Shown here: positions 8,214-63,440 of the stretch, piece by piece
Layout of the letters: each line of letters starts with the position of its first letter
How positions within the stretch are numbered: position 1 is the stretch's first letter
Notes under the pieces: model-generated
Told to the model about the DNA's origin: nothing
Seen by the model: the letters and a program-made list of their open reading frames with translations, nothing else
The model's database searches: none
Program-made: the position numbers and the translations under genes
Assembly (NCBI GenBank): GCA_001574975.1
Contig: KQ965750.1
Span: 62,001 to 126,000 of the forward strand
DNA from: Gonapodya prolifera JEL478
Lineage: Eukaryota; Monoblepharomycota; Monoblepharidomycetes; Monoblepharidales; Gonapodyaceae
DNA length: 64,000 nt
Direction of reading: 5' to 3'

Positions 8214-8785
8214 TGATTTGGTTGTGGAAAGGTCTCAGGAGGAAAATGTAGGGCCCTTCAGTCCTTCCGAAGAACAATGCTAAAACCGATCAGTCTGTGC
8301 ACCCATCCCGGGGCACCCCTGATGTTTCCGACGATATGGTCGGGCAAAGTAGTACTGTACGGAACAGTAAATTAAGATACCAAAATGGGGACGGGCATAA
8401 AAGCGCTGCCAGTGATGTTGGGAAAGGTTAAGGGTGCCCGCCCAACTGGGAACATCACTGCCGCGACGTCTCAAGTCAGAGTCAATACCAATTTGGCGCT
8501 TGGTGTTTGTACAAGGATAATAAGATATGCACGCTCAAAAACGGATCAGAAAACGAACGGACGAAACAAAACCCCCCCACACGCCAATACGAAAAAATCT
8601 GAGCGTGTATTTGCATGCAAAATGGATTTGAACAACATATACAATGTGTGGCATTAAAAATGTCAGACAGATGAGTTGTCTGGGCCAGGTGGAACACATC
8701 CAACTCAATTTTCACGGCCGACAACACGTCCTCAATCTTCCCTCACAAGAAGCGGCAGCCAGAGTCCCACCACACCCCTCCTGCG
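8214..8785. other. Intergenic region, relatively AT-rich
   Basis: About 570 bp between the stop of the F-box gene and the start of the hypothetical protein, both on the minus strand. It should hold the 3' UTR of the first and the promoter of the second. Nothing else was recognised; short frames here look random. Confidence 0.6.
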
Positions 8786-10182: not shown

Positions 10183-12552
10183 CAGCAGCTTTGATTCATT
10201 CAGCTCCGACCATGCTTCAAAATTTGATTTCTTGGAGTTGCTATTGGTGACACTCGGGAAACAGCACCTCGCTAAGGAAGAAACTGTTTCACAGCTTGTT
10301 CACATTACCCTCGTGTGTTCTCTGCAAGTTCGTGTGCTAGCGATTTGTCGATTTTTACGATTTCTCCTACCTTGGGGATGTGTCAGTTGGGGATGGAGGA
10401 GCAGATTCCAAGCAACAAGCAGTTTGGGATGACTCGACAGTTCTCAAGTTTAAGGCTGGCCTCCGGCGCCACACCTTTTGCGCTGCACAGAAGTCGGCAC
10501 CAACCAAATTATTTTGATTTTATTAAATCAGCCTCGAAATTATATTCTCGCATGAAAATACACATCGAATATCTTTTTCACCTGCATACTGCTTGAATGT
10601 GCTCACGCTTTCACCGTAGAGCCAACCAGTTCACTTGCATGCCACCCGCCGCAGCAGCTCTGGAGCTTTAAAGCAATCCCTTTGAGTACTCTGACTGTTC
10701 TGAATGGATTTTCCCGCTGCTTTAACATTTCAGGGGTGGAAACATTGCTGGAGCCGTACTCGAACACCGAACATAAATCCCCGCTATGAGGGGGAACGCA
10801 GAGATATTTTGAAGAGCGTACCCGCGCGAGTATTTCCATGTCTAAACTGACCGGTTGTGACCATTAATCCGGTCATGAAATGACCAAGAATGTAAATTTC
10901 CAGTCGAATATCGAGAACGAGTCACCGGGGCCCCAGACGAAATACGATAGAACAAATCGCCCATTTTCATTAAAATTGGCAGGCTCACTTCCGGGATAAG
11001 GGTGACCGTCGTTGATGGCGAATGGTTTGAAGTCGGAAAAAATCCCCCATCTCGGTGATGCTGCAGCATCCGCCCCGGGGGCAAGAAAAAAGTTAGACTG
11101 GTATAAATCGCCCGCATTGGCGGTCACGATCCGCCTTTTATTTCGCCATAATTACCGTTCAATCGGTTGGGATGGGCTTTCAAAGTTGGAAAAAACGTGC
11201 CGCCGACCCCAACCACAGACAGGAGGCCAGCCTAAATTGGCACGAGCCCAACAACTGCGATGAAGGGGAGCAGTGCGTGGAAATGTATGCTCCTCAACAA
11301 TCAACCATGCTCGGCAAAAGAAGGTGGTTGCTTTGCGGAAAGGAGACTTGTGAGGGACGTCGGGGTGGGGTTGAAATTGCGAATGCTCCCACGAAAGTGT
11401 TGTTTTCTGCAGAATTGCGGAGTTGATTTGATCCGACCAAAACTCCGCTCTTAAGCACTTCAAACTGAGAAGAGAAGGTACCAAGAAGACATGGCAAAGG
11501 TGAGGTGCATTGAGAAAGAGTTTCTTTCCCTCGTCGAAGTATTTACTATTGCTCTTTCGTTTGAACTGCGAAGTGGAAATCAAGGCACAGGATCTGGACG
11601 TCTTTATTATTCTTCACTGAGATTGCTCTACAAGAGCACGAGTATAGTGTAGCCCGTAGTATGTGCGCCTGGAGCAGATCATGTTCTTGCGTATTTGCAA
11701 CGAAACTCAACGTGGAAAAATAAACGTGCACATGTGTCACCTGCCATCGATATGGCATGGCGACTTGGATGGGGGTTATGCAAGGCTTGTGTGAGATGTG
11801 ACGTGCTTTGGGTGTGTCCTTTTCCTTTGTGTACATATGCATGGGCGGGACAACCTCGGCCGGGGTAATCGCTGTGGATGTGTCTTTCCAATACCTACAT
11901 GCAACAGAACGCGGACTGCTTCTCGTAGGAGAGAAACATCATGTGGTATGCGCTGTGTGACCTGGGGATCAAACTTTGCGGTGCAGCGAAGAGACTATAG
12001 TGAGTGGGTAAAACCCGCACTGGTGTTCATGGAGAAGAGGAGGTGCAGTGAAGAAAGAGATGGCAAAAGAACGAATGTAGAATGCAAGCAACTGGGGAAT
12101 AAGCCGAATAAAAGGGCCTTGGGATCCACGCGCACAAAAAAGATTGGCGGAACGAGCAGAGCAGGTGGAGTGCAGGGTGCACCCGGGTCAGAAGCAACAA
12201 CGTCGGGCAGCAGATTCGAAGCGTACGCGGCGAGCGGAGTGGGACGCGAGGTGGGTTGGCGGGCGGAGAGCGCGGATTGGCGGGCGGCGTGGGCGTGGGA
12301 GGGCGCAGCGAGGCGATGGGGGGCGGGGAGTGTGGGGTGTGATGGGGCAGTAGAGCAGTGTGGAGAGAGAGCGGGGAGAGGAGTGGAGAAGGTGGAGAGG
12401 GTGGAGGGCAGGCAGAGGGCAGGCAGAGGCGGAGGGCAGGGAGGGAAAGGGGAAGTAGTGGGTGAAAGCGCAGCGGACGGAGGACACGCACGGCAGAACA
12501 CAGTCGTCGCACTGCACTCACTCACGCACACGCACCCGCCCCGCAGACACCC
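10183..12552. other. Long spacer (about 2.4 kb) upstream of the acidic low-complexity gene
   Basis: This is the longest stretch without a convincing gene. The part to about 11.7 kb is of ordinary composition. From about 12.1 to 12.48 kb the plus strand is strongly G/A-rich, then it changes at about 12.49 kb to C-rich, next to the start at 12553. Large open frames on both strands in the last kilobase are products of that skewed composition. Only one short stretch (see the entry at 10873-11127) looks protein-like. I saw no terminal repeats and no transposase motif. Confidence 0.55.
10873..11127 (-). other. Possible coding fragment of unknown nature
   Basis: An open frame of about 84 codons on the minus strand reads with protein-like composition: NAGDLYQSNFFLAPGAD, then GIFSDFKPFAINDGHPYPG, ENGRFVLSYFVWGPGD and SFSIFDWKFTF. 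It has aromatic residues in a spacing that suggests beta strands, unlike the random frames around it. I recognise no family, find no convincing start codon, and cannot join it to flanking exons with confidence. It may be an exon of an unannotated gene, a relic, or chance. Confidence 0.22.
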
Positions 12553-15500
12553 ATGCCACACACCGCGCCGCGCACTCTGCCCCGCACTCCCTCGCACTCC
12601 CGCACTCGCACGCACTCACACTCGCTGCTGCAACTCTCCGCAACGCACACCCTCCGCGCGCCTTCCCCGTCCCCTTCCCGCCCCTCTCCCTCTCCCACGG
12701 CGTCCTCCTCAGACTCCTCCCTCGCCTCGCTGCCCTCCCTGCCCATGCTGTCGCTCTCTCCCTCGCTGCCCTCCCCGCTCCCCATTGCGCGCATCCCACA
12801 CGCGCGCCCGCCAACTCCTCCCCTCCCCTCGGCGGCAGCGAAGAAACGCAAGCGACGCCCCTCGCCTCCCTCTCCCTCCCGACCGCCTCACCAGCGCACG
12901 CCCAGACCGGGCCGGCTCGCCCTTCCCTCGCCGTCCTGGCACGCTTGCCACACCTCCACACCGCCGCTCGCCAGGGCGTCGTCGTCGTCCTCCTCGCATG
13001 CCTCGGGCTCTGTAGCCCACGCGCATGCGCACGGTCATGGGCTCACGCCGCAGCTTCCTGTCCCCGCTCCTCCTCCAAAACGGGCTCGCACCGACACGCC
13101 CCCGATCCCGGCGTATGCCCACTCGGCAGAACTGCCCTCCCTCCCTTCTCCTTCTCATACTCACACTCACACTCATCCCCACACTCCGACTCCTCACCCG
13201 CCGACTCCCACTCCTCCGGCCCCGTCTCCCTCCCTTGTCCTCCCCGAACCTTCGGACCGTCGCGACGTACCCCGTCTTTCGTCCTCCTCCTCGCTGTCTT
13301 CGGCACCCGCAAAGCGTGAGTCCCCTTGTCTCTCGTTCCTTCTCCGTCTCCCTTACTTACTCTTCCCACCTGCTCCAGGCCCAGGCCCAGGCGTCGCCGT
13401 CAGTGTCGAGGTTGAGGCAATTTCCGACGATGAGGACGATTACGTCGTCGCCGGGAGGGCGAGTGGGGCTGGTGGTGGAGGGGGTGGAGCGACCGTGTCG
13501 GGTGGAGGTGTTGGAGTCGCGCTGGATGCGAGTGCTGGTCTCCGTGGCTCTTCGGGTGGAAGTGCGAGTCATGGAGGGGAGGAAGTGCGCAGAGAAAAGC
13601 AGGGCGAACCAGAAGAATCCCGATCACAAGTGCATGTCGAGGTGGACGTGCACGTCGCTGCCGCTAAGGAGGTGGAGGCAGATGCGGATGTGGAGTCGGA
13701 CGCCACGCCCGTCCCCGTCAGCGAGGAGGAGCAGCCGAACGCCACCTCTGCCGACGACGACGCCGACCACACCGACGCTGCGATGGACGCCGACGCCGAC
13801 GATGAAGACGAGGTTGTCGCGGTCGTGCCCGCGCATCCCGAACTTGCACCGTCGGATCGGGTGGACGCACCTCCAAGTCACTTCTTGGAGGACGCAGCGG
13901 CGGTAGCCGATCAGCAGGGCGATGTTGCCGTTGCGGATGTGGGTCCACAGGGGCAGGGGCAGGGGCAGGTGGGCGGCGAGGTTTCCGAAGCAGATGTTGC
14001 CCGTGCCGAGGTCATGACTGTGGATAGCGGCGATGTGGAGGAATCCGACGAGGAAAGTGAATCGGACGACGGGGAGGAGGCCCAATCGGACGAAGATGAG
14101 GTGGATGAGAGCTCAGACTCGGACTCGGATGAGGACGACGACGAAAAAGACATGGTTGACGAGCTGGCACCCTCTTCGCCAGAAGTCGAGCATGCTGCTA
14201 CTCCTCTGCCTGCTCCTGCACTTTCTGTTGAGCCTCCCGCACAACTCGGACCGCCCGCCCAATCAGACAGTTCTGCGATTCCCGCGTCCCTGCCCGACGG
14301 GGTGGTCGTGGTCAATGGCACCAACGCCGCCACCAACCTCACCCCACCCGTCCCAACGTCTGCGGACGTCCCGACAACTCCGACCACCCCGGCGACCCCG
14401 GCAGGCCGGCCTGGCGGGACCATGAGACGCATCATCGTGCGCAGGTCGCCGGGGTCGTCTCCCTCCTCTGCTACTTCCTTGCCAACCTTGTCCACCTCCA
14501 CCAACTCGACCGACACCTCTTCGTTGCCTACCACCACCACAACCACCACCACCGCCGCCGCCCCATCTTCACGCCGCCGCCGCCTCCCACCGCCACCCGC
14601 ACCAACGCCCCCGCCCCGGCCCGCCCAACGCACTGTGTATGCGGCTCAAGACCCCTCGACCCCGCTCGTGCGGTACAGAGCTGTCGGGCGGCCTAGAAGG
14701 GACGGAGTCAGGTGTTGGGCCGTCATCAAGGTGTTCGATGGCGCAGGGGTTGTCGGGTTCCCGAAAGGCCAGGAGGTGTTCGATAGTCCCGCAGCGCTTC
14801 CTCCTTCCTCTCTCCCGCCACCACCGCCGAATCCGGACCCCGTGCCCGCTGTGGGCGGGGCCGTTGCGGTTGTGCATTCCGCAAGTGAGGGAGTGGGTGC
14901 AGCCAAAATGGAGGTGGATGTGGACCCTGAGACAACGACGCCGACACAGAGCCAGCGTGAGGATCCCGCACACACGACTTCGACACCCCTCCAGCAGGCC
15001 CCGCAGCAGCAACAACAGGGGCCGAATTTGGATACCGTCGCAATCGTTGCGGCCGCGTTGCAGAGAGGTCCCCCGGGGAGTAGAACGGCGACAGCGGCGT
15101 CGGAGCACGTCACTCCTCAGGTCGTTCATCCCGCCCTGCCCGCGCTGGTGCAGACGAACATTCAAGTGCAGGCGCACGCGGCGGGGATGCCGAAGGGTCC
15201 GTACGCGGCTGTACATCCACCGATCCCTCCTCCTGCCCCTCTTGCACCCGCCCCTCACTCGTATTCACACCCATCCCACCCCGCACGCGTTCCGCCGCTC
15301 CCGTACCATTCCCGTGCACGCGCACCAGTGCGCGTAGAGCCGCCTGCAACAAGATTGCGAACCATGGTCGCCGATGCCGACGCGGCCGGTGCTGTCCCTG
15401 GCGGGGCGGGGCACGTACCTCAACAGGGCGATATCGGGCGGTTTCGGTACCCTGTCGGGGCGCGGCGCGCGTCAGGACTTGGCGTCGCGGCTCCACCTTC

Positions 15501-17121
15501 GATCCCGTACCACCGCGCAAGCGGCCGGCCGACACGACAGGCGGCGGCATACACGGGCGTACCCAGGGTCGGAGGGTACACTCCGGTTGCAGAGGCTGCC
15601 GTGGGTGCCGGGTTTGGCAGGCGAGGGTTCGCAGGACGCCGATCCTTTGGTGGCGTAGGCGCAGTGCCTGCCCCCATGTCCGCGTACCCCGACCGCCGGC
15701 GCTCGGACGGCGGCGGCGTGCTGGTTCCGATGGATGTGGAGGAGTTTTCTGAGGAGTCGGATACCGAGTCTGTGGGTGTGTCGGAGATGAGCGTGTCGGT
15801 TGTGGGGGACTCTGTCGATCGGGAGCGTGAACGCGAGCGGGACCATGCCGGTGCTGGTGTCAGTGCCAGTGCCGGGTCCGTCGTGGGACCAGCGTCAGTC
15901 GTGGACGAGGATAGTGGGGCGGAAGATGGGTGGTTGAGTAAAGGCGCCGCTGCTGCGCGTGGGGCGGGGGACTTGGAGGATGAGTGGAGTGGCGACGATG
16001 ATAGCGAGAGCGAGTGGAGTGTCGATGAAGACGTTGGTGTCCGTTCTAGGGCCGCCAGAGGGTGGATGTGGGCGACGTGGACGACCGAGGATGCGGCGGG
16101 GTACGTGAGCGACGAGGGCGAAGAAGATGAAGAGGATGAAGAGATCGGGGTTGACATGTGGGGTGGTGGTGCCAGAGACTCGGACGATGCGTGGGCGGCA
16201 GAGGCGCTTCGGCTAGCCGAACTGGAGCTGGACTTGATGCTCGCCGCGGTGTCTTCGATGGACGTCTTCCCACGAGGTCCCACAAGGTTAGATGGCGAAG
16301 TCCCCGACGTTGCGGACGTGGACACCGACGATGATGATTTAGCTGGCGATCTGCGATCCCGGCCGGTGCGTGACGGATCGGTACTAAAGGGGCCTGCGGA
16401 TTCGGCTGTGGAGGTCGGGGAGGCGGTGGCGGTCCCGACGGGAGGCGCAGTGCATGTCGTGGACGACGAAGACGACGTGGTCATGGGCCCCGTGGATTCA
16501 AGTGCTGCCGCTCCGGAGACAGTGGGAAGCCCACCAGATGTCCCCGAGAGCGACATGGACGACGATGCGACATCCCCACTCTCACCACAACCTCATCCCG
16601 TTTCGGCCTTGCTTCTGTTTCCGGATCGGTGGGCGGCCAAGTCGGCCCGTCTTCGCGAGAGGCGGCTTCGGAAGGCACTCAAGGGCGGCGTGGGGGATTT
16701 GGGTTGGACCCGAGAAGCGGACGACGCGGACTTTGTGCAGGCGCTGCGCGAGTTCGAGGAGGAGATGGAGAAGGAGGGGGTCTGCGTGCCGCTTGTTGAG
16801 CAAGCTCATCAGTGGATCGCAGCCGGGCTTGGCATCGTGCCCGGATTTGCATACGGGTGGCCCTTCCTCACCAACTACGAACTCTCCCTTTTCTCGAGCG
16901 AGCCGACCTCGTTCATGACCATACTCCCTGCAGAGCCGACACCCTTCCCACCAGGCGGGGAGATGGAGGATGTGTTCCGACTTCACGATGTGCCACTAAT
17001 GCGGGCGTGGAAGTTTGGCGACCGGATGTTAGGCATTCCAACCACGGTAGAGCGGAGACGGACGTCGACTGTGCGGGCGGAGGCGGACGGGGGGCGAATA
17101 TGCAGACGGGTCCGAAAGTGA
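12553..17121 (+). CDS. Large low-complexity acidic protein, likely nuclear, function unknown
   Basis: A reading frame of about 1,500 codons starts at the ATG at 12553 and ends at 17121. The first ~250 residues are Ser/Pro/His-rich with a basic NLS-like patch (AAKKRKRRP) and a PPPKRART patch. Residues from about 300 are very acidic, with runs of D/E/S (for example SDEDEVDESSDSDSDEDDDE near 14090-14150). Pro/Gln-rich segments follow, then a second acidic half, and a more ordinary C-terminus (about 16590-17121) with RWAAKSARLRERRLRKAL and a Trp/aromatic-containing end. An intron with good sites lies at 13316-13378 (gtgag...ctccag); it is 63 bp and has no in-frame stop, so it can be spliced or kept without breaking the frame. 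No domain recognised. Composition suggests a chromatin or transcription protein, which is inference only. GC content and codon third positions are well above the neighbours. Confidence 0.65.
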   Translation: MPHTAPRTLPRTPSHSRTRTHSHSLLQLSATHTLRAPSPSPSRPSPSPTASSSDSSLASLPSLPMLSLSPSLPSPLPIARIPHARPPTPPLPSAAAKKRKRRPSPPSPSRPPHQRTPRPGRLALPSPSWHACHTSTPPLARASSSSSSHASGSVAHAHAHGHGLTPQLPVPAPPPKRARTDTPPIPAYAHSAELPSLPSPSHTHTHTHPHTPTPHPPTPTPPAPSPSLVLPEPSDRRDVPRLSSSSSLSSAPAKRESPCLSFLLRLPYLLFPPAPGPGPGVAVSVEVEAISDDEDDYVVAGRASGAGGGGGGATVSGGGVGVALDASAGLRGSSGGSASHGGEEVRREKQGEPEESRSQVHVEVDVHVAAAKEVEADADVESDATPVPVSEEEQPNATSADDDADHTDAAMDADADDEDEVVAVVPAHPELAPSDRVDAPPSHFLEDAAAVADQQGDVAVADVGPQGQGQGQVGGEVSEADVARAEVMTVDSGDVEESDEESESDDGEEAQSDEDEVDESSDSDSDEDDDEKDMVDELAPSSPEVEHAATPLPAPALSVEPPAQLGPPAQSDSSAIPASLPDGVVVVNGTNAATNLTPPVPTSADVPTTPTTPATPAGRPGGTMRRIIVRRSPGSSPSSATSLPTLSTSTNSTDTSSLPTTTTTTTTAAAPSSRRRRLPPPPAPTPPPRPAQRTVYAAQDPSTPLVRYRAVGRPRRDGVRCWAVIKVFDGAGVVGFPKGQEVFDSPAALPPSSLPPPPPNPDPVPAVGGAVAVVHSASEGVGAAKMEVDVDPETTTPTQSQREDPAHTTSTPLQQAPQQQQQGPNLDTVAIVAAALQRGPPGSRTATAASEHVTPQVVHPALPALVQTNIQVQAHAAGMPKGPYAAVHPPIPPPAPLAPAPHSYSHPSHPARVPPLPYHSRARAPVRVEPPATRLRTMVADADAAGAVPGGAGHVPQQGDIGRFRYPVGARRASGLGVAAPPSIPYHRASGRPTRQAAAYTGVPRVGGYTPVAEAAVGAGFGRRGFAGRRSFGGVGAVPAPMSAYPDRRRSDGGGVLVPMDVEEFSEESDTESVGVSEMSVSVVGDSVDRERERERDHAGAGVSASAGSVVGPASVVDEDSGAEDGWLSKGAAAARGAGDLEDEWSGDDDSESEWSVDEDVGVRSRAARGWMWATWTTEDAAGYVSDEGEEDEEDEEIGVDMWGGGARDSDDAWAAEALRLAELELDLMLAAVSSMDVFPRGPTRLDGEVPDVADVDTDDDDLAGDLRSRPVRDGSVLKGPADSAVEVGEAVAVPTGGAVHVVDDEDDVVMGPVDSSAAAPETVGSPPDVPESDMDDDATSPLSPQPHPVSALLLFPDRWAAKSARLRERRLRKALKGGVGDLGWTREADDADFVQALREFEEEMEKEGVCVPLVEQAHQWIAAGLGIVPGFAYGWPFLTNYELSLFSSEPTSFMTILPAEPTPFPPGGEMEDVFRLHDVPLMRAWKFGDRMLGIPTTVERRRTSTVRAEADGGRICRRVRK

Positions 17122-17416: not shown

Positions 17417-20108
17417 CTACGGAGCAGCGGGAAGGGGGGTACGGTCGATCAATGCCACGATTAATTCGCAAAATTGCGAACCAAACTCACCTCCGTAGTG
17501 GTCGAAAATGATACCGGCGACTGTGTACGCCAGCTTGTCGCAGTTCTCACGGGTGTCTGCCTCCGCATACACTCGGACGATGTCTTCCGTCCCTGACGGC
17601 CTGTTGGAAAAATGCGCCGCATGTCCAAATGGCAGGAGGGATATGCGTCACTTCTACGGAAACAACAACTTATTTCGTACTTCATCATACGAACCTAACA
17701 AACGATCTTCCATTCTTGTACTTGGCAACCTCGGCATTGATCCGATCTTGCGACCCCACGGGTTCGACCAACTCCTGCTCCGCGTTGGTAGTCTTGAATG
17801 CGAGGCGATTGGCGACCTGCAAGAGAGCGACCTCGGTGTCTTGAAACGCTTGCACCCAAACTGGCGTCTAAAGTGTCTCTCACCTTGACCTTCTCCTGCC
17901 TGTTGGGCACCTCCGTGTACAGCTCTCCCCACTGCTCGAATGACCAGCCCTTGTATGCTAATACAGCGAGGACGGCGAGCATGTCCGAAATGGCATCTCC
18001 CACAGCCTGGTTAATCACGTCAGTGAGGCATTCCAAGAACTCGAGGGCCGCAAGCTGCTCGGGTGTTTTTCTGTAAACAGTGTCAAGCAGAGCGTCAAGA
18101 TGTTGTCACGTTCACTGGGCATATACAATGACGCACCCGCCCCTCTCTTTCACGGCCTTCACGAATCCCTCGCTAAACAAAACCGTACCGTGCCCATTGG
18201 CCTCAAAGTAAATACCGACGTCGAAGCCCTCCGCCTCATGGTGGAGGTGCTTGACTCCCGTGGGTACCATCGACACGGGGACGCGAACTGTTTCGCGGAG
18301 GTACCGCGTGCTGGCCCCGTTTGCGTAGGCGGTTTGCACGACGCCAACACGAGGAGAGCCAGAGGGGAGGGTAAGTGAGGCGAGTTGGGAAAGCTGTGAA
18401 ACGGTGGATGCAAGGAGGGCGGCGATAGTGTCACCGTCGAGCATGCGGAAGGTGCCATCTGGGGGTTCGTAGGGAAGTGGGGACGGTAGATGATGTGGAT
18501 TCCAGGCAGATTGGGCTGACCGAAGATGGAGGTAGTGCTCATACGAGAAACGTACCCTTCTTCACAAAGTAGAAAATCACACGGTCGGCATCCCCATCGA
18601 GTGAGACACCGTAGGTTCCGGGGGTCATGGGAAAGTTCTCAGGTTGCTTTTGCTGCACCTTGACAAAGTCCGCTCCACACTAAAGGGGAGATTTGGGGTC
18701 AATCTCGGGGTCGCGAAAGGAATCACAAACCATGATGCAACACCATCGATATTTCACACCTCGAACCATAAATTTTTCCTCGCCCGTCCTGAGCTTCGAC
18801 ACGTACCTTGTTATTGAGTTTCGAGAAGTCTGTGATATCTTCGTTGAACGCGGAAAAGCTGACAGAGTCTCCAAGGTAAGGCAGGAACGCCTTGAACTTA
18901 GGCGCGCCGACACCATTGGCGCCGTCAACGTGGATAGTGGGGAACTTTGTCTATGTGGGAGTGGGCATATGAGCGTGCCAACCGACAGAAATGTGAGCGT
19001 GGGGGGTGAATGTCTCACTTTTCCGAACTTCATAATCCGCTTAAACGCGTCGCCAATCTTCTTATAGTACCCCTCCTCCGTAGGTACTCCGTAGGCTTCG
19101 GGTGTTCCCTTTGTGTTCAGAGCCCTCACAACATAATGCAATTGGGGGGTGGTGAAGACGCCATAGTCGGTGACATCCCCTCCTGCTGCCCTCGCCCCGT
19201 CAAGGAAGGCTCCAACAAGCTTGGGGCCCGTTGACCTGGTGTCTCTGGCGACGACGACGTGGGCGGGAGCGGACCAGGAGATGCTTTCCGCGGTGCAGAT
19301 GGAGGCCAGCACGGAGGGCACATCCACGTCCGCGGAATTGGCAAGATGTGTAGCGTGGAGCTCCCAAGATTGCTCAAGCATTTCACCAAGGGGGTCGACG
19401 AGCTTGACGCCGTTGTCCTGGAAGGGGATTGGGGACCAACACATGAGCAACACTTCCCTAATGACACCGAATTCTGTTCCAACGCCTCTCCATAATCCCC
19501 GAGCGACAAGAAGCACGGTATTCATATCCGCGGACTGGCAGTGAGTCCTACTTGGACGCCCCTTCATATATTCTGCTGCCTGACACCGCACTTGAACGCC
19601 GAATGGCCATCCAAGCAATCAGATTCCACCCGACCACTTCCCGATGAATGAAATTCTCGGCCAATCTTCGGACTAGTTCCCACTCGTAAATCCTCCGCAC
19701 TGTTTGATGAGTCCACTCTCCTTCGAATGTTAAGAAGTGTCCGGCAACGGGTTTTGTTCGGAGCCACGCACCTGGTCTGGGTTGTGAGATGCAGTCACCA
19801 TTGCGCCAATAACCTTACTGTTAAGTTTCTTTGATCGGAGGACTGCGAGGAGGCCCATTCTGTACATTACGGAGTCGAGCAGGTCACCCCTGGGGCAGGA
19901 ATTGAATGCGCACATGGGAGGGAGAGTAGAGGAGTGAACACGGGAGTGGAATTCAATTCAACGGAGTAAGCCATGGCGAGAGAATGAGTGGATGAGTTGA
20001 CGAAACACACTTGAGCCTGAAGCCAGCGGTGCCATATGTGAACGTTGTGTTTGGTTTTGGATGCTTGAGACTCGCGTCTTTGACCTGCTCGGTTGGAATC
20101 GATGCCAT
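17417..20108 (-). CDS. AGM1/PCM1: Phosphoacetylglucosamine mutase (GlcNAc-6-P to GlcNAc-1-P)
   Basis: The enzyme converts N-acetylglucosamine-6-phosphate to the 1-phosphate, a step towards UDP-GlcNAc for chitin, N-glycans and GPI anchors. It starts with [14 protein letters not shown] at 20108. In order: '[12 protein letters not shown]' (N-terminal substrate loop); after an intron '[14 protein letters not shown]' with the catalytic, phosphorylated Ser near 19800; a long exon starting [18 protein letters not shown]; '[14 protein letters not shown]' with the metal-binding DGDADR near 18600; '[20 protein letters not shown]' with the sugar-specificity EANGHG loop near 18200; and '[16 protein letters not shown]' (phosphate-binding loop) near 17570-17600. 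EANGHG and TASHNP together identify the AGM1 branch rather than ordinary phosphoglucomutase. All four catalytic loops are intact. There are about seven short introns. The last codons (17417-17500) may instead be an extra small exon. Confidence 0.93.
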
Positions 20109-28816: not shown

Positions 28817-33399
<4,583 letters not shown>

Positions 33400-34088: not shown

Positions 34089-37000
34089 TTACTCTAGCAA
34101 TTGAAATAATGGCTGGAATGTGAGTCCCATCTCTTCGCTTCTTGCAATGAAGGTCTCCAAATCGATTCGATCAAGCACGTGTTTGTCCCCCGTCACGTCA
34201 CCGTCATCATGTTTACTCTCGGTTTCCAATGGTGGGCTTCCTTGCTCCGATATCGAGAATAGTTTCGCAAGAACCTCCTGATCAATGCGAGCCGTTAAAT
34301 ATTATTGACGCAGTCCCCCTAAAAACCTTCGGACTCACTTTCGAGAATGGATCCACCGCATCGGGCTCCTCCGTCCAGCGCAAATGTGTCTCCCCAACTA
34401 TTTCAACCGAGTTGTGGAGGATCGTGTAGAGCTCACCCAGTGTCAAGCCAGAATCATTTCCCGCAATCGCAAAAGCCTTTGCGACACCAGTTTTCACATT
34501 TTCATCCCGACAGCAGCACAGCATAAATTGGAGTATTTCGACGCTACTCTCCTCTTTTGGCGGTGGGTCATGGATCTTGATCGACCTTTGTTCTGTTCCC
34601 ACCTGCATGATCCTATCAGCGGATTTGGTCGTATCGTCGGGATTGGAAACTGCCACACGTGACTCTGTGACCGTACCAGTGGCATCAGCGGACATGGGTG
34701 TGTCGTGACGCTCGGCAAAAATAACTTCATTTGAACGAAACCATCACGCTCATTGTAGTTGACGTCAGAAGCACATGAAACTCACAGCTGATGGCTTCCT
34801 TGATTTTCGCCGGTCGATTATACTTCGGTTCCTCCCCATCAACCTCGGACAGTACGTCTTCAAACCACAAGGGGACGGTAAAGTAGTCTAAACTCGATAT
34901 CTGTTGTGTTCACTTAAAGTCAAGCCACATCAAAGCGGTTGCGAGGTTATCTGAGACTCGCCTTTCCGTCTTTATATGAAGAGAGAGATTCGTACTTGGA
35001 TTTCAGTGCTTGCCAATACTCCGGACCAGGACTCGGTAGAATGTTGGCACACAACAGCAAAAACTCTCTCCAATTCACGGATCCGGTCTCAAAGGGGTCC
35101 AGAATAGAGATCATCTGGGATAGAGCATTGAGGGCCGTGTGTATTTTGTAGCTTCTGCCGAAACCCAATTCACATACCTTGTCCAGTTGCCTCGGCTCCC
35201 CTCCCATCCAACCTTCGGGTACAGGATCAACCGACGACTGCATCATAAAAGAGTGCTCAGCATCGCAGCCAGGCGAGGGTACGAGTCGTGACTTACCAGT
35301 GCGGCCGTCAACTTGGACACCAATGTTTGTAAGTGGGAAACACCGATGAAACCACTCGCTGCGATGCCCTGCAACTGTGTCGCGAAGTTCAGAATTTGCA
35401 ATACCGAAAATTGATCAGGTCCTGTTTTCGTCATCAGTTTACGATGCGTTCAGATGAGATTGCGTCGGACCAACCTGTCTTCTCCACAGGAGTTGAAGGT
35501 CGTCGTTCAGGCTCTGGCTCAAACGTCAAGACACCCGGATCAATTTTGAACTTGTCCCCCTCAAGAACAAGCTCGTTGGGCAATCGCGTCTCGAATTCGA
35601 TGGCTTCCTTTATCGTTCCGACAAGTTCTTTGATGGCCTCCAATTCTGATTGATAGCGGCCATTCAACCATTCATCCAAAAGGGTGAAAGCTTCAACCCC
35701 TCGAACTTTAAGGTCCTTGAAAAAAATGGTTAAGTGATCACAACAACCGCGGATCTAGCATGGCCAGCAATCACTTACCTTGAGATGTTCAAGCGCACAA
35801 GCCCGGATTCTCTCGAGTCGGCGCCTCAGCAGCTGCTCCTCAAATTCAATCAATTTCGCATACTCTGGTGGAAGGTCAAGGTCTATGTCGGCTGATGCGA
35901 ACAAATCGCATCAGCTACGTCGGTTGGCGCGATTGGAAGCATACTCACGCTTAGTCTCTTGAACGGTCTCCGTCTTATCTGCTTTCTTTTTATTATCTTT
36001 TTTTTCGGGCTCCGCCGCAGGTGCGTCTTTCGGTGAGAGTTTAAGGTGCACTGCATTGAATCCCACTTGGTACGCAGCTTCGATCTCGGGACAGCTGAAG
36101 TCATCCTCAACATTCGGCAAGCTTGGTGTGGGTACAATAGGGTGTTTCTCTTTCTGACCCCGCTTGCCTGCACTTCCTTCTTTGGCTGGAACTTTCGCAG
36201 ATTTTGCAGGTGCTAGAATGGCAGCTATGTCCAAAGGCACCGCACCACTGGCTGGCTGCAACGGTAGTTTCACCGGTGCCAAAACAGTTTCCTCGAGAAT
36301 CTGTGATTATGATACAGGTTAACTCATAGTTCCGATTGGTGTGCGAAATAGTGTCACCTTGCTGACTCCAGCATTGTTGACCTAACGATCAATGGTTCAG
36401 CAAAGTGCATTTGGTTCCTTGTTGACCACTCACAGTGCTATAAGCATCCTTGAAGTAATCAATTGCAAGCTGCTTGGTACCAATGAACCTGTCGACTTCC
36501 ATTTGCATCATACCGATGAAAACACCGATTGCTATGACATAGTGGTCTTCGATCCACTTGTCGGAAATTATCGCGACGCGTTCGGCTTCAGCTTCCTCCC
36601 GACGAAGATCCGTCATTTCCCAAAGGCGATCTCTCAGATCATCAGCACGAATATGAAGTTCAGCTTTCGCGTCCGGATCAGCCCTATTTATGTATGGTAT
36701 GATGCACATCGTCTTTTGGTCGGCAATCTGCACCCACCTTAGGTCATCCTCCACTTCATTGTACTCCCTTTGAAACATTTCGACGAGTTCTTGCTTTCGA
36801 TCTGGCCGCTCCAGGAATTTTGCATAACTAAGTTTGATCCCATGGAAGTATCTGGTGATAGCTTCGCGCTCGCGCCTGAGTGATCTAAAGCTAAATTTCA
36901 GAGCATCCACGAAAGTATTCTCGGTCGTACTCCAAACTTTGGACGATCATTAGGAGCTCGCGAACAACCACCTGCATCAAACTTACCATCCGCAAGAACT

Positions 37001-40000
37001 TCTGCCAGTGAGCGTGTGGGCAGCTTAAGACCATCAGAAGCAATGTTTCGGTCTAGTGGGCTTGGATTGAGGTCTCCCATCGGTCGGTCGGGAGCAGGGA
37101 CTTCGCCTGTGTCCGTATCTTCGAATTGTATTGGATCAAAGGTACTCAGTTTACCGGTTGTATCGGCACTCACCTGCGTCCGCTAGTTTGCTGCTCTGAT
37201 CTTCTGACACAAAATGGTGAAATCACTTCAACACTCGGGTTCCCCCAGAATACACTGACCTCCTTCTTCTTTGGGATTCTGGTCTGACGTTGGTGACTTT
37301 ACATCGTCTTGATGAAATAGTTCAGGTCAACGGAATATAGGGAGATCCCGTTCCACAGGACTTGTTGCTCACACTCACGCTGTTCAGCTTCCTTCAAAAC
37401 ATCACCTTTGTCCTGCGACCGACTCTCCTCCTCCAACCTTCTGTTTTTTTCTTGGACCACTTCCCGGATGGCTCTTCTCACTGAGTTTAGAACTGTTTCT
37501 GGGGTACTCTTCGCATCTATTAGCTGAAAGGCAGACGCGATTATCAGCAACCTTCGTGAAGAATACGATTCGAAGAGTTAGAGCTCACCTGTAAGTTTCG
37601 AAACCTAAAGTACCAGTCCCGCAGAAGCTCTTCTTGTTCTTCGTAAGCGGCGATCTTCACGTGGAGTTGGTCTGTGTCGTCCACGGGTACAAGCTTCTCC
37701 AACAACCCCTGTGGGTCAAGTGCTCTGTGAATATATCTCCAAACGCATTCAAATCAGTTTCCAATCAACAAACCGGGACTTCCGTCGGAGGAGGATTGTA
37801 GTCCAAATGATACACTGTCTTTGTTTCCGGATCTATGAGCTGGCCCGCCGCTCGATTGAAGGCAGTGTCATTGTCCACGTCGAGGAGGATTACCGCATCA
37901 AGAGCGCTAGTCGGGCGTGGTTCATCATTTTGAGAACTTTCGCCAGTGGTTTGCGCGAGTAGAGATTTCGGTTTCGGCGCTTTCCCTTCATTGTCTTTAC
38001 CATCATTGGGTCGTTTGTCTTTCGACCGCTTCAGATTTCCGGGCTTCACAGGCTTAGGATCTTCGTATCTGAAAAATGGATTTTCTTGATTGGAAAATGC
38101 GGGAAAATTTAAGAATGTGAGTGCATTACCCTGATAGTTCTTTCTCCAGGAGCTGGGCTTGATTCCTATTCCTGGGAAAGTCAGACAAAATCCAGCCCCC
38201 TGGAGGACTTCCATCGGCGGGAGCGCTGATCTGGTTGACATACTCCACAACAAGAGACACTAGCAATGCGTCATCGGGGCTACGGCCTTCAAGAAGCGCC
38301 ATTTGAAGCTTGGAAGCGGTGCCTAGTCGATCTTTCCGGTCCTTTGAGCTATTGGCTTTCGACCCGCCTTTCTGCTTCACAGTATCGAGATCCTTAGTGA
38401 CGGAACTAGGAAATATGAAACCAGCAGCGGATGGGTATTTACCCATGTCTCAAACCAGAATGTGAATTTACAACACACTTAACGGCATCCTTAATGATTT
38501 CATCCAGCATCAGTAGCTTCAAACCATAATCATCCGCAAGCTTCAGGGCAACTTGATCCACCCCGCTGAAGGGTTTTCCCACGACCGCAATTTTCAATGG
38601 AGCTGCCGGAATAAGGGGCTCGTGCGCCTCCAACTCAGGTTCAGCAATGATATCAAATATATGTTTAACAATCCGACCCAGAATTTCATTGTTCGAGACC
38701 ACGTTCTGTGGTGGAGAACCTGTGCGGGGAGCGAGAGGAGGCCAGTGTCCGGTTTCCGATAGATAATCATTCAACTCGCTGTCATCGAGGATTTGGGAGC
38801 TTTCCGGGATCAAGGAAGGAGTAAGGTCGGGAGACACGACTTCGTTGGGGATCGCAACAGGAGTCTCCCATCCCACCCTGTCCTGCGGAAGGTCAATCTC
38901 GCGATAAGTTTGGAGAGATTTTCCTGCTATGAACAGAGTCTTCCATTCGCGCATGAGTTTGGAAGGAATGAAACCGTCTGCCAGGGAACGCTGTTCGAAC
39001 ATCTACCTCAAAATCGATCAGAACAGTCAACCCGCTTTAAGCAATCACGACGGCGTACTTTGAGAGCGAGATCGAGAATTTGTTCCGTTACTTCACGGCA
39101 CACTTTAGCATGCCGTTTCCTTTTTGCATTTTGCTTTTTGTCCACCACCTCTTGATGTTGTTGCGCAATTGCTGCAGCATTTCGTTCACGGGTTTCTTGA
39201 ATTTGCTGGGACAGAGATCGCTCGCGCGAAAGGGCTTCTTGGTAGTCCTGTTCCCGTCGTAGAGCATATTGCGCTTCTCGAAATATGCGATTCTGTCGCA
39301 TTATTTCTTTCTCTTGTCGTACTTGAACGAGCCTGATGACACCGATTGACCAATCACGGGACATTCCATCTTGAACAAAAGCAAAAAATGCAAACCCACT
39401 GCTGGGCAATCCTTCTCTCCTGCTTCGAAACTTTTGTCAGCTTCGCAACAAGTAAAGATTCGAATGTCTCTGCATCCAGGCGCTCTTGTTCTCTTTGTTG
39501 GGTCAGCAGCTCCTTCCTCCGAACTTGTTCCCGTTCGCGGCGGTTCGCCTCTTCTTCAACCTTCTTCACCTATAGGGGCGGTCAGCGCTCCATCGTAAGA
39601 ACAAACCGTCGCCTTACACACTGAACACTTACCCGCAGCTTTTCCACTATTTCTTTCCCCTCCTTGTTGCTACCCTCCGAAAGAAGCTTTCTCTGCATTT
39701 GCTTGGCTCTCGCATGTCCCTCCTGCAGGGACGATGTGCCTGGCCCAATAGGTGTGAGGTCAATTGAGGACGAGGAAGCAGTGGCTGGTGCTACTGTTGC
39801 CGACTCTAAATTATTGACTGGAGAGGTAGAGGACGAAAGAGAACTGCCTTCGAGTGATCGTTCAAACGCCGATACTGCACTTTGAAACGTTTCAGCGATG
39901 CGTCGCTTCTTGGACTGACCGACAAGGACGCCGGTAAGTGGCGTTTGGACGCTCACAAAACATAAGAAAACGTACGTCTTCAGCAGCTTTCTCCTTAGCC

Positions 40001-41133
40001 TGTTTCATCAAAAGCGCAGCCTCCTTCACGGCCTTCTGCTCGGCAGCAAAGTCTACAATATTTTTTGGTGGACGTTGGTATGGCGCTGCTTTACGAGCAG
40101 GCTTGGTCTGGTCAGAAGTGTGCTGTGTAGTCGAAGAGGAGGAAGCGTGGCCCTTGAGACGTGGTTGTACAGAATTACGAGATACTTGTTCATGTGATTT
40201 TGCGGTGGGGTCAGATGAAGATTTCAGGGGCTGTTTCTGGGTGTCCAACAGTGCATAAGAATGCGATGATACACAAGGTTCGATGATGTTGCGGTCACCT
40301 ACCATTGTCGCTTTCATTTTTTCAGTCTTTTCCTTCTCTTTCACCATCGCGAACTGCGCTTCCTCGGTCCTCCGTAGCTTTGCTTTCAAGCGTTCGGCAA
40401 AAAATGCATGCTCGCGCTCGAGAAACGCAGCTTGGACAGGGTGAGGGAAGGTCGGTGGAGGAAGTGGTGGGGGTGACCCGAACACAGGGACTGAGAGAGT
40501 GGCTCAGAGTGTGGCAATATTCGGACGAGTTGGCAACTCATCCTCCGTCCGCCGCTCGGGACACTGAAGGACAAACCTACCTCTCTCATTTCGATGGGAG
40601 GACATGGAATGTTCATGACTACTCATCCCCCCTGCTGGTGAGTCTGGTCTAATAAATTCGTCATCAACCTTCGCTGGCGCTGCTGCATCCAAGCGCCCTT
40701 CCGAATGTCCGATTTCTGAGGCGGTATATGTGTCCGTAGGTACATCCCACTTCCCAATATTAGAGACTTCAATTGGCTCCTCCATCGTTCTGGCCTGAGC
40801 CGCTAGGCGACCAAGTGCTGATTTAACTTGATATAAGAGTTTCGCAGCGTTTCCCGGCTTGCAATGAATAATGTCAAAGGCGAAAGTCGAGGAAATCTTC
40901 ACCCCAAGTCTCTCCCTGAGAATGCGCTCCAGCAGTGTGAAGTTTCTGATTGCGACTTCAGGCTTTGATGAATTCGCTACCTCGCCCAGAAGATCTCCGC
41001 CTACGCCGTGGCGACTCAGTATCTCAGCAAATAGATAACCATTCGCGAACGCCGCATCCAGCTGATCCGATGTAATTGGGGATGCGCTGAGATGTACGTC
41101 GCCATTGATCCACTGGGCCAGTGTGTGCGACAT
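34089..41133 (-). CDS. SPEF2: SPEF2 (KPL2/CPC1), central-pair axonemal protein
   Basis: SPEF2 is a large projection protein of the axonemal central pair (Chlamydomonas CPC1), needed for normal flagellar beating. I choose the start MSHTLAQWINGDVHLSASP at 41133 because it matches the N-terminus of animal SPEF2. It opens the CH-like (DUF1042) domain, which ends 'KPGNAAKLLYQVKSALGRL' near 40800. Then come long charged coiled-coil exons (about 39000-40480: KAKLRRTEEAQFAMVKEKEK; EANRREREQVRRKELL). An adenylate-kinase-like domain at about 38100-38650 reads 'IAVVGKPFSGVDQVALKLA' and 'GGWILSDFPRNRNQAQLLE'. Charged regions with IQ/coil character follow, and C-terminal EF-hand-like parts ('FETGSVNWREFLLL' near 35070-35130; 'LGELYTILHNSVEIVGE' near 34380-34440), ending at 34089. 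The P-loop Lys of the kinase domain is Val. More than 15 introns; the long size is normal for the family. Confidence 0.9.
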
Positions 41134-41319
41134 CCCGATTTGTACGGCTTCCGTTTGATGGCTTTCTCGAGTTCCGGAACGTCCAAAACTCAGAACGCCA
41201 ATCGGAATACCTCGTCCCGTTTGCAGTCTATTGTTGCGCAATGACCGAAAACAACTGTTGAAGCAAGAGTCACGTTTCCAAAAGACACTCTAGACGGAAC
41301 ACAAATTCGAATTTACAAA

Positions 41320-42867: not shown

Positions 42868-45657
<2,790 letters not shown>

Positions 45658-59350: not shown

Positions 59351-61636
59351 TCATCGATCCCGTGAAACATGCAGGTCACTCCTCGACACTCCATCCCTAA
59401 AATCGAGCTCCGCGTCCCGTACATAAGAACCGTCCCAAAATTTAGCCTCGGCCTCCTCCACTGCAGACTCCACCACCGCCACTTCTTGTGCCAAGCCCGA
59501 ATACGTGGGTGCAAGGTGTGGATGCGCCGCCATCGCATACAGCAAGTCTGCTATGTTTAGCCGGCCAGAAGGCTGTAACGATGCAGATGGATTCGATGTC
59601 GTGGATTCCACGATATGGATCTGTGTTGGCCAGTGTTCAGGATGTGGCAATCCCTTGTCGCCGAGGGACCGTTTCCCAGGTGAGCGTTCCAAAGAGCCAT
59701 TTCTCGTCCGAGATGGTGCAATTGTCCGCTTTGGTTCCGTGTCGTCCGATACTCGCAAAGACGGCCGTTTTCCCTTTCCGTCTACCAGCACGACCGGACC
59801 AGTGGTGGGGCGCTCCGTTTCCTGTTCGTCGTCACTCCAGTGTTCGGCGCTATGTTGAACCGGGTGATGCACATGGACTTCGATTGGTTCCGGCGGTAAA
59901 TCGCCATTCGATGATACATTTGCGACAGTAGGAGCCGTGGTTCGCCAAGCATCATTGCGGATGTGCGAAATGCATGCGGACAGGAGGTTCTTGAGGTACG
60001 CCTAAGGACGTCGTATGAGAACCAAGAAACGATTTTCGGTCCCGGATCAAGTCATTTTTAGTTCCCGTACTTACCTCTAGACCCAGAGCAAGCACCTCCA
60101 CAGCTCCATCCTGGACAGGGTCACGACCCACAACAGCAGGTGAGGGCATCCCTGGGATCGCGCCAACTTCTCCCACGCGTTCTGCGTTTGCAGCAACACG
60201 GAGCTTGGCGCGAAGGTGGTCAAATGTAGGGAGGTCGCCTAGTTCGGAGAGGGAGGGAGGAAGGGGTTCGGCAGGGGCTGTGGACCGGACGTATAATGTC
60301 GGGACTTTGGAGCTCCATACAATGCAACAAAGGACCTACCATTGACAGAACCTGGTAGTGAGACGCGGTTTGGAGAAGGGAGAGGCACGATTCGCTGAAG
60401 TGGTATGAAAAGCGGTGCCTCCTGAAGACGGATGAGAAACCCGGGTTTAAAGTCTGTGGCACAGAAAAAGTTCCATTTATATTTCTCACCTCGTCCTCTT
60501 CCTCTCCCCTGGTCCTCTTCACCCCCCGTCCGTCGGCATCCTCCGGGTTCTCTTCTGTGTCCCATTCTGCTTTTCTTTTCACACCGGTACCGGTTCCTGT
60601 CGCAGGAGTGAGTGGGGCTTTGGGGCTAGGAAGCCGAGCATTATTGATTAAAGATATTAAGAGATTGTTGTGGAGTGGTCCTGGAAAGCGGTATGATGCG
60701 AGATTTAGACTCGAGATACGGGGAAGTGCCAAGAAGGAGACAGAAAACCTTGAAAATAGACGACATTTCTAGGACCAAAGGAGTGAAAACATTTGTAGCA
60801 GCAGTGGTGTCTCTCAGTATTGCTATAGCTCTCCTTTCTGTTTCCGGAAATAACTCCTGAATCCTGTTCTCAACTCCGTATCATCCAAAATATGTTGTAT
60901 CCATGATCACACGCACCGACAGCCATTTCAGCCATCGTCTTTCGGTGCGGAAGGACGTACTTCCTGGACATTCACCGACATAGGTACCGTCCCTTGCGTA
61001 TTTCCCGAACAACCACACCATTTCTCTCACTCAAAACGATCCGCCCATATGTACACTCCCAGAGAATATTTGCAACTTACTCAGTCTAGCGCCCAGCATT
61101 GTTCCGACCCTATCCTCCATTTCCCCGCGCGTCAACCTTCCTGTCAGAAAGAGCCCCAAAGCTCTCCAGTAAATTTTGAAATCGTCTCTTCCTAAACCGT
61201 CCATCAGACGTCGTTTCAATCCGAGAGTGTCCCGACGCTCTGCGGAGCCGGAGTTCCCCTGTTGTTGGTTCGCCGGACCGCCGTGAGGAGGATGGGATGA
61301 AGCAGCGGAGGAGTGAAGCACGCCATTGACAGGACCAGATTGTGATTCGCGCTTGACCGGTCTGTATGGTCCCCCCGATCCATTCGTCCCACCTCCAGTG
61401 CTGGACACTCCAGCTCCTGGTGGTTGTGCAGGTGGCCGCGCCGAAACCGCCGACGCCACAGAAGACCCCTGGCCCGGATGATGCTGCGCAGACTGGGTTG
61501 AAGGTTGAGCGACCGAGGATTGGGCATGAGACGTGGGTTGTGGAGGAGCTGGAGATGGTTGCGGTGCCGCTGACGAAGAGGCCGCCCGAGGCGGGAAGGG
61601 CGAAGGATTCGGAGGGAAAGAAACAGCAACGGACAT
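59351..61636 (-). CDS. HFI1/TADA1: SAGA complex subunit Ada1/TADA1 (Hfi1)
   Basis: Ada1 is a core structural subunit of the SAGA histone acetyltransferase/coactivator, and its histone-fold-type region pairs with Taf12. Start MSVAVSFPPNPSPFPPRAAS at 61636, followed by a Ser/Pro/Gln-rich head. Then 'RRDTLGLKRRLMDGLGRDDF', 'KIYWRALGLFLTGRLTRGE' and MEDRVGTMLG give the SAGA-Tad1 signature (L-K-x-x-L-..-L-G-..-Y-W-..-L-..-F-..-G-x-L-x-x-x-E). After a longer intron (about 60690-61078) 'PLHNNLLISLINNARLP' supplies the next family block (L-H-N-x-L-L-..-I-..-N). Next are a basic/acidic segment (KRKAEWDTEENPEDADG), more exons, and the C-terminal exon (59351-59872) with 'LNIADLLYAMAAHPHLAP'. Introns 2-4 are approximate. 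It is convergent with the coiled-coil gene (about 250 bp) and in tandem with the globin gene. Confidence 0.85.
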
Positions 61637-62083
61637 TGCGAATTGTTTCTATCCGTAGGCGAACGCGGGGATGGCAAGCTTGCGATCTATCGCCCTTTAG
61701 GTTACTTCCAGTCGCGTCGAGCAATCAAGAAACGATTGTGAGAGCAGAAAATGAACAAGAAAATGAAGTCAGCTTCCGTTATGCGGAATTACGAGACCAG
61801 TTCCAGGGAATCGCCGTTCAGTGGTCATCGCTCCCCTTTACTCCCAGCTGTCCATCGCTACGTCAGCTTACAGATTTTTCGTCCCAAAGCACCGAAAAAA
61901 TGAGCGTGGTCTCAGTCCCACGAGGTGACGGCACCCGACCGGATTCAAGGGTGGGGTGGGGTGGATGGTGGTTGTGCACCTGTGCTGCTAACTTCGCTTG
62001 TCGCTTCCAACCCTCTTTTGATGAAATGCGATTGTTTATTAAATAATTAATGAAGGAAATTCAAAACAAGTGGGTTCATGTAT
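61637..62083. other. Spacer between globin-like gene and Ada1
   Basis: About 450 bp between two minus-strand genes. The side next to 62083 has an AT-rich patch (about 62030-62060) that probably holds the polyadenylation region of the globin-like gene. The rest is the Ada1 promoter by position. Confidence 0.55.
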
Positions 62084-63440
62084 TCACATGACCGAGCATC
62101 CCGGATCGTCTGCTCTCGACGATGCGGACCCACCCTCTTTCGCCTCTTTTTCCTGGATATCAGCGAGTTCTTTTTTCATTTTCTTGATTTCTTCGTCGCC
62201 CATCATGCCACCTCGGTTCATCACCGCGCACGTCTCGCGCAAGAGCATTTGCCAGGCACGTATCACACGTGCAGCTGGAACAGGAGGGCGTGAAGTGGAG
62301 GCGGAGGGGTGAACGTCGGTGAGTCCGTAGGTTCTGTGACGCAAAAGTGGTCTGGCATGTGCATCGTGCGAGACAGCCTTTCCAAACCTACATGCCGACA
62401 ACCATGCATTTGTAGTCCTTGAGTCCAATCCCCCACTCGTTCATATGTCGGTTTCCGAGCTCCAGCATTTCAGCCACGGTTGCTCGTCTGTCTCGTCCGG
62501 CGAGAGAAGCCTCGGCACCTCGCACCATTCGATTCAATATTCGAATGATGGGGAAGTGGTTGGGGTCCGAGATGTGCTGATGATACGCTGGGTTTTGGGA
62601 TAGCAGGCATTCCAGTGTAAGGGACTGTGCGAAATACAGTATGAAGTGTGGGTGTGAGTGCAAACTCCAAACATTCGCTCATGTACCCACTCCCATTCGT
62701 TCCATCAACCCCGCGTCCCCAATTTCCCTCCAGCTTTTCACAACCGTTTCCATGTCTTCCTTTGACACGTCAACCCTAATATCCTTCCAACCCCCTTGCT
62801 TTTTGTCATTGGCTACGGACGACCAGTCGAACGACGACGCGAGCGCCGGCGACCCTTTCGAATCTCCCTTGCCGTGACCGGATGCACCGAGACTCCCACT
62901 TCCCCCAAGAAAAGGAAGGGAAAGAATTGTCCTCCTTTTGGTTGTTGCGTTCACAACCTGTAAACCTTCTTCCTCAGCCACGGACGGAGTAGACCCCCTT
63001 CGAACATGGCCATGCCCATGTGCGTCGGCTCGAGCCATGAAGTCATTTAGCGACGGGGTGCTTCCAACTTTTCCACGCATTGTGCCGGGGTGGAAAGGGG
63101 AATTTGATGAGTTGACCGAACTAGTACCTGCGGCATTAACTTGGTGATGTATTTGTGCTGGAGTCCCAAAAGCCTTCTCAGGAGCCTCTGGCGAGTCACA
63201 AGCGCCGGCGTCGTCGAATTTGAATGCGAAGGCGGGTAATGGTGCGAGCATCGATGGCGACGATGAATCCGTGATGGATGACGCGGTGTCTGCGGTGAGG
63301 GAGGAGGTGTCTGGAGTAGGTGATGCTCGAGATGAGTCAATAGGTAGGGGTGGCAGGTGATCGGGCTTCATCGTCGAAGGCGGCAGAGGCGAGGGTGAAG
63401 CCAGCGATGTGGATCTAACTGAGTCCGGAGGACTGGCCAT
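62084..63440 (-). CDS. Globin-like protein with long disordered N-terminus and C-terminal CaaX box
   Basis: Start MASPPDSVRSTSLASPSPLP at 63440. The first ~200 residues are Ser/Pro/Gly-rich and disordered. The globin-like region begins 'METVVKSWREIGDAGLMERM' (helix A-like Trp) and, after an intron of about 80 bp, reads LLSQNPAYHQHISDPNHF and 'IIRILNRMVRGAEASLAG'. Then 'VAEMLELGNRHMNEWGIG' puts a His where the proximal F8 His of globins lies (neuroglobin: LASLGRKHRAVGV), followed by 'LKDYKCMVVG'. A second intron (about 62330-62388) joins in phase to ITYGLTDV and 'ARVIRAWQMLLRETCAVMN' (helix H, conserved A-W). The end is a charged helix (EEIKKMKKELADIQEKEAKE), then GCSVM and stop: Cys-Ser-Val-Met is a CaaX box with Met, typical of farnesylation. 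The A-to-E part is shorter than usual, so helices B-D may be reduced. Heme binding is predicted, not shown. Confidence 0.68.

Follow-up and report, generated by a model that had tools for sequence, protein, structure and literature searches.

Can a globin be attached to a membrane by a prenyl group at its C-terminus? This question is raised by a gene of the fungus Gonapodya prolifera JEL478, for which an earlier note had proposed a globin-like product ending in a farnesylation-type CaaX box. We analysed this gene within a window of 64,000 nt of contig KQ965750.1, the window being the whole stretch of DNA considered here.

Gene structure and reading frame

The gene lies on the minus strand from 63440 to 62084, exactly where the earlier note had placed it, and its three exons encode a product of 410 amino acids. 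Exon 1 (63440-62691) starts with the ATG at 63440 and comprises codons 1-250, encoding a Ser/Pro/Ala-rich stretch (residues 1-220), helix A and the beginning of helix B. Intron 1 (62690-62625; 66 nt, GTGGGT...GCACAG, phase 0) follows between B6 and B7. Exon 2 (62624-62392) encodes the globin-like domain from helix B to helix G, and intron 2 (62391-62334; 58 nt, GTAGGT...TCACAG, phase 2) lies within codon 328, at G12. Exon 3 (62333-62084) contributes the end of helix G, helix H, a charged tail and the tetrapeptide CSVM, ending with the TGA stop codon. An AATAAA polyadenylation-type signal (62040-62035) starts 44 nt 3′ of the stop. All these elements are on the minus strand.

The segment around the presumptive proximal histidine (LGNRH) and the helix-H segment (RAW...VMNRG) had been claimed to share one reading frame, and they do so through two frame-keeping introns. 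The splice model, fixed before scoring, was compared with those GT-AG combinations in the tried donor and acceptor ranges that preserve both the reading frame and the terminal CSVM. It was the best of these 24 variants by hhalign globin score (32.1; next best 30.2), and alternative splicing was rejected, as none of the 24 outscored it. An alternative in-phase acceptor at 62352 would shorten intron 2 to 40 nt and add six amino acids, leaving the C-terminus unchanged.

Codon scores were calculated against a reference of 497 codons, drawn essentially from the Pfam-matching stretches of six other open reading frames (ORFs) in the window. The gene's frame ranked first among the six frames in all three exon parts of the globin-like domain, clearly in exon 3 (0.111 against -0.129 to -0.325 in the other five frames) and by a narrow margin in the 35 codons of exon 1 (0.273 against 0.212 in one other frame). 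Over the N-terminal part, which is of low complexity, it is level with one frame of the antisense strand (-0.056 and -0.048, respectively). The spliced reading runs ...ADDPG-CSVM-TGA, with the stop directly after CSVM as previously described. The stop is well placed, and so, therefore, is the CaaX end.

Remote homology to F-type globins

Pfam and NCBIfam yielded no family for the 410-aa protein at E ≤ 10, and a sequence search of the PDB returned no globin, its sole match being ribosomal protein L1 (E 1.5). Any claim of a globin therefore required profile-profile evidence. HMMER searches with globin profiles gave the protein 4-7 bits only. With a profile HMM of nine globins, the exon-2 ORF alone came ninth among the ORFs of the window (E 13), amid chance matches, and this search revealed no second copy of the gene in the window.

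The globin-like domain corresponds to residues ~226-370 (62765-62207, minus strand, exons joined), as delimited by hhalign against the F-globin profile. With the nine globins, hhalign gave the 160-aa domain a score of 26.2, with helices A-H collinear; none of 200 shuffles and none of 200 block shuffles reached this value (maxima 19.2 and 21.8). Adding bacterial F-globins raised the score to 31.8 and then, with 105 F-globins, to 32.1, over 132 columns and with a probability of 60.6% (P 8e-5 as a single test). Against the 104 partner-checked F rows, from which one partnerless row was omitted, it was 30.3. Shuffled queries averaged 11.9 (n = 60, maximum 21.3), the reversed query scored 15.6, and 300 decoys, drawn from 429 long open frames next to the retrieved loci, averaged 11.6 with a maximum of 24.5.

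Proteins of other folds also stayed low against the F profile, with maxima of 16.7 for 17 ferritins and 18.8 for 20 haemerythrins. As a positive control, 20 S-globins (sensor globins), which are known relatives, scored a median of 31.7 (range 9.7-51.0), ten of them reaching 32.1; none of 15 T-globins did so (median 14.0, maximum 31.8). With partner-checked rows, the medians were 26.2 for S-globins (n = 19) and 13.9 for T-globins (n = 15). Since the score of the query falls within the S-globin range, it is about as near to the F-globins as a typical sensor globin. An S- or T-type globin was ruled out by scores at shuffle background, 13.8-15.6 against the S profile (20 or 19 sequences) and 10.9 against the T profile (15 sequences). 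The ferritin (15.2) and haemerythrin (13.0-14.0) profiles likewise gave background levels.

These comparisons support globin homology at a remote level and of the F type, and we consider it very probable that the domain adopts a globin fold. The similarity over helices A-H expected of an F-family member emerged with hhalign, at a probability of 61%, and did not emerge with HMMER in Pfam or NCBIfam. Of the earlier assignment as a globin-like protein, the remote relationship is thus borne out by hhalign scores of 30-32 with lower shuffle and decoy controls, whereas direct sequence matches in Pfam, NCBIfam and PDB are absent.

The domain might instead belong to another small all-helical fold that resembles a globin by coincidence. 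The lack of a curated family, the low HMMER bits and an hhalign probability below the usual comfort level all speak for this, as does the lack of a confident structure. The one structure model covered the end of exon 1, the retained intron 1 and exon 2, TGA being translated as Trp; its mean pLDDT was 39.6, it contained a 22-residue intron insert and lacked helix H, and Foldseek against the PDB gave a best E of 2.9 and nothing at ≤ 0.001. By itself, this model carries no weight in either direction on the fold. Against such a coincidence stand the controls, as none of the 300 decoy frames, 60 shuffles or 400 shuffles with the smaller profile reached the query score. The background scores for ferritins and haemerythrins, the collinear A-H alignment and the splice model, fixed beforehand and yet the best by globin score, point the same way, and we regard a non-globin fold as quite improbable.

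Haem pocket

His310 (62447-62445, minus strand), in the motif LGNRH, occupies position F8 of the proximal haem ligand in the alignments. Further positions expected of the fold are filled by Trp237 (A12), Leu254 (B10), Pro262 (C2), Ile316 (FG4) and Trp355 (H8). Position CD1, six residues beyond Pro-C2, is Ile268 (62573-62571, minus strand), while 100 of the 105 F-globin rows have Phe there, two have Leu and three another residue. An Ile at this nearly invariant Phe position beside a retained His-F8 is unusual for a globin-like domain.

The register of helix E varies among the manual, hhalign and MAFFT alignments, so that E7 is Pro275, Ile276 or Ile279. In no register is it Gln or His, the residues of the F-globin rows (97 and 7 of 105, respectively). 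B10 is Tyr in 92 of the 105 rows and Leu in the query. With Ile279 as E7, the spacing is 11 residues from CD1 to E7 and 31 from E7 to F8, the corresponding values of E. coli Hmp being 10 and 32. A CD/early-E region shorter than that of flavohaemoglobins by ~10 residues was rejected: depending on the helix-E register, the difference is a shortening by 0-3 residues or a lengthening by one. Using the list of myoglobin-fold (Mb-fold) positions in the portion of PMC3287990 available to us, we counted 25, 25 or 27 hydrophobic residues at 35 positions, according to the register, the domain as a whole being 44% hydrophobic (hypergeometric P from 2e-4 to 7e-6; positions anchored by hand). The highest count belongs to the Ile279 register.

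As judged from these positions, the protein lacks a NO-dioxygenase site like that of the flavohaemoglobins, because CD1 is Ile, E7 is Pro or Ile and B10 is Leu. The earlier note had favoured a membrane role such as NO or O2 sensing or lipid redox over bulk NO removal. The negative half of this claim is supported, as the protein is, by its sequence, probably not a bulk NO dioxygenase because it lacks both a reductase domain and the Tyr-B10/Gln-E7 pair, whereas sensing is not established in view of the residues at CD1, E7 and B10.

If the fold is that of a globin, haem binding is somewhat more probable than not in our estimate. A prenylated globin fold without haem, tethered to a membrane as a scaffold or as a module of stress signalling, has to be weighed as well, and haem-less relatives of globins exist, such as the RsbR-type proteins. 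The Ile at CD1 and the missing usual residues at E7 and B10 would fit such a protein; the retained His-F8 with its surrounding motif, Pro-C2 and Ile-FG4 would not, nor would the CD-E-F spacing, which is normal for a flavohaemoglobin in one register. Hydrophobic E7 residues also occur in 3/3 globins of Guillardia, yet all of these have Phe-CD1, according to the accessible part of PMC4101818. We consider a haem-free fold unlikely, although it is a serious rival to the preferred reading of a prenylated, non-respiratory globin.

The C-terminal CaaX box

The C-terminal tail (residues ~371-406; 62206-62099, minus strand) consists of a charged part and a flexible linker, behind which the CaaX box, Cys407-Ser408-Val409-Met410, occupies 62098-62087 on the minus strand, with the TGA (62086-62084) directly 3′. 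The C-terminus thus reads SASSRADDPG-CSVM-stop, with the box at the extreme end of the protein (GGSASSRADDPG).

According to the rules set out in the available text of PMC1175975, the +2 position has a strong aliphatic character, farnesyltransferase accepts a broad range at +3, where GGTase-I prefers Leu and Met, negative charge is incompatible with +1 and +2, and the linker from -1 to -11 is biased toward small or hydrophilic residues. CSVM and its linker satisfy all of these rules, with an aliphatic +2, Met at +3 and 11 preceding residues that are mostly small or hydrophilic. By sequence, CSVM is a near-ideal farnesylation box. Taking all six frames of the window, we also surveyed the ends of the stop-to-stop frames with 30 codons or more. 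Among 1333 such ends, Cys stood at -4 in 58, a broad CaaX pattern, C-x-[VILMTA]-[MSQACT], occurred in five and a strict pattern in one, which is that of the globin-like gene; both patterns were composed with CSVM already known. The farnesylation-type motif described earlier is a textbook example.

The 20 residues before Cys407 carry a net charge of -2 and contain neither a polybasic stretch nor a nearby Cys, and no second membrane signal was seen in the 410-aa protein. Because of this charge and the missing nearby Cys, a single farnesyl group would hold the protein at a membrane only weakly and exchangeably.

The protein might also be a soluble, divergent globin with a CaaX-like end that arose by chance or is inaccessible to the enzyme. 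Broad CaaX ends at 5 of 1333 ORF ends would amount to dozens by chance in a genome of many thousand genes, and neither a polybasic nor a palmitoylation helper adjoins Cys407. On the other side, the tetrapeptide comes close to the optimum and is not a marginal case, its strict form occurs at a single ORF end, and the 11 residues upstream of the Cys have the required small or hydrophilic character. We judge a chance motif to be unlikely, if a serious rival as well, and it is somewhat more probable than not that the box is used. Prenylation and membrane residence of the globin-like protein are, then, predictions from its C-terminus.

A Gγ subunit or another CaaX protein read into exon 3 by mistake was ruled out, as no Pfam match exists over the 410 aa. 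No relatives were found in viral or prokaryote contigs, searched with six short peptides each, which reaches close relatives only. Elsewhere in the window (7662-8234, minus strand), a 190-codon open frame ends in the CaaX-like CSIT after the basic KTKRTRTETR, a candidate gene end.

Genomic neighbourhood

Directly downstream of the globin-like gene and on the same strand lies a SAGA ADA1/HFI1-type gene (61034-61648, minus; PF12767, 4.6e-9). Further genes are a SPEF2/CPC1-like gene of the flagellar central pair with several exons (34950-41289, minus; PF06294, 6e-14), which also has SPEF2_D5, Hydin_ADK and SPEF2_C matches below the cut-off, and a katanin p60-like gene (42871-45292, minus) with an AAA domain, a Vps4_C match and, below the cut-off, a MIT-type N-terminus. 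Pieces of the catalytic subunit of DNA polymerase delta (POL3_N, DNA_pol_B) were found at 29586-32642 (plus) and a multi-exon gene for phosphoacetylglucosamine mutase (AMG1) at 17698-19618 (minus). An open frame of 1551 codons at 12466-17118 (plus) lies largely within a stretch of 66% GC that holds several long frames overlapping one another. It had no Pfam match at E ≤ 0.01 and is probably either a protein of low complexity or an artefact of composition. The SPEF2/CPC1-like gene argues for a flagellated organism, and the flagellar and fungal/animal-type genes of the window together suit a flagellated fungus.

A possible membrane-associated globin

The explanation that we favour, while giving it slightly less than an even chance, is a prenylated, non-respiratory single-domain F-type (3/3) globin of a flagellated fungus, working at a membrane. 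In such a protein, an N-terminal stretch of ~220 residues, rich in Ser, Pro and Ala and probably disordered, would precede a divergent globin domain, itself followed by a charged tail with linker and the CaaX box. Farnesyltransferase would add a C15 chain to Cys407, after which the last three residues would be cut off and the Cys carboxyl-methylated. The modified Cys407 would then mediate weak, reversible membrane association. At the membrane, by analogy with the N-acylated animal globins, the protein would most likely act as a regulator responsive to redox state or ligand, or as a local scavenger. The gene structure, the remote relationship to F-globins, His-F8 and the terminal CSVM come from the analyses above, whereas prenylation, membrane residence, haem and function are inferred.

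The flagellar membrane in other flagellates uses carriers of prenylated cargo. It is possible, though we consider it clearly less probable than not, that this is the first prenylated globin, reaching membranes, perhaps that of the flagellum, by C-terminal farnesylation and hence independently of the N-acylated globins of animals.

Phrase searches of the open-licence literature found no report of a prenylated or farnesylated globin or haemoglobin, which is not proof of absence. Combining 'globins' with 'prenylat' gave no prenylated globin, judged by titles and the starts of abstracts; 'hemoglobin', 'globin domain' and 'CaaX' together gave nothing, and the word 'globin' was absent from the chytrid literature among the matches listed. 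One review on iron and ferroptosis (PMC11486532) contains 'membrane-bound globin', 'myristoyl' and 'prenyl'. Work on lipid-anchored globins concerns N-terminal acylation, as far as the accessible parts of PMC4101818 and PMC7771090 go, and 'prenyl' and 'CaaX' have no occurrence in the main texts of these two papers. Lipid anchoring of globins is already known; the C-terminal prenyl route, if real, would be new. If true, a fungal globin with a different lipid at the opposite end would represent convergent recruitment to membranes and would point to a membrane-local job for globins. Membrane-tethered globins would then have arisen more than once in opisthokonts. For animals, it is debated whether the blood globins go back to an ancestor bound to membranes, as outlined in the part of PMC7771090 available to us. 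The gene also suggests that fungal globins may have escaped notice where they diverge too far for Pfam.

Comparison with known systems

With Ras and lamins, the protein shares an end of the type Cys-a-a-Met behind a flexible linker (lamin A ends in CSIM), but it has no GTPase, lamin or Gγ domain, given the missing Pfam match over 410 aa. With the single-domain F globins of bacteria, Mucoromycotina and protists and with the neuroglobin-like globins, it has in common the F-profile match, His-F8, Pro-C2 and the lack of a reductase; it differs in being too divergent for Pfam and in its long N-terminal extension and CaaX tail. According to the accessible part of the 2012 fungal census, fungi possess flavohaemoglobins and, in Mucoromycotina only, single-domain F globins, while S globins extend to Chytridiomycota and Blastocladiomycota, two phyla that each have T1 globins in a single genome; S and T1 are the only types named there for chytrids and blastocladiomycetes (PMC3287990).

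The flavohaemoglobins, the usual NO dioxygenases of fungi, share the F-type globin ancestry and, in one register, the spacing without a D helix. The protein is not one of them because it has no FAD/NAD reductase, its globin domain being followed by a charged tail of ~40 residues without Pfam match, and its B10 residue is Leu and its E7 residue is not Gln. The difference from flavohaemoglobins asserted in the earlier note is hence supported.

Globin X (GbX) and C. elegans GLB-26, which are N-acylated, likewise combine a globin domain with a terminal lipid anchor, although in what is accessible of their descriptions this anchor is N-terminal (myristate, with palmitate in addition in GbX), in contrast to the C-terminal CaaX box here. 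A Gly2 for myristoylation with a nearby Cys for palmitoylation is absent from the Gonapodya protein, which starts with MASPP... and has its first Cys at position 81. It is moreover fungal, has Ile at CD1 and carries its introns at B7.0 and G12.2, so that animal-type intron positions were rejected, the conserved introns of animal globins lying at B12.2 and G7.0 according to the available part of PMC7771090. For GbX, the accessible descriptions deem a respiratory role unlikely and propose redox sensing, electron transfer or protection of membrane lipids. By analogy, the globin-like protein of Gonapodya may act like the N-acylated membrane globins without being one of them.
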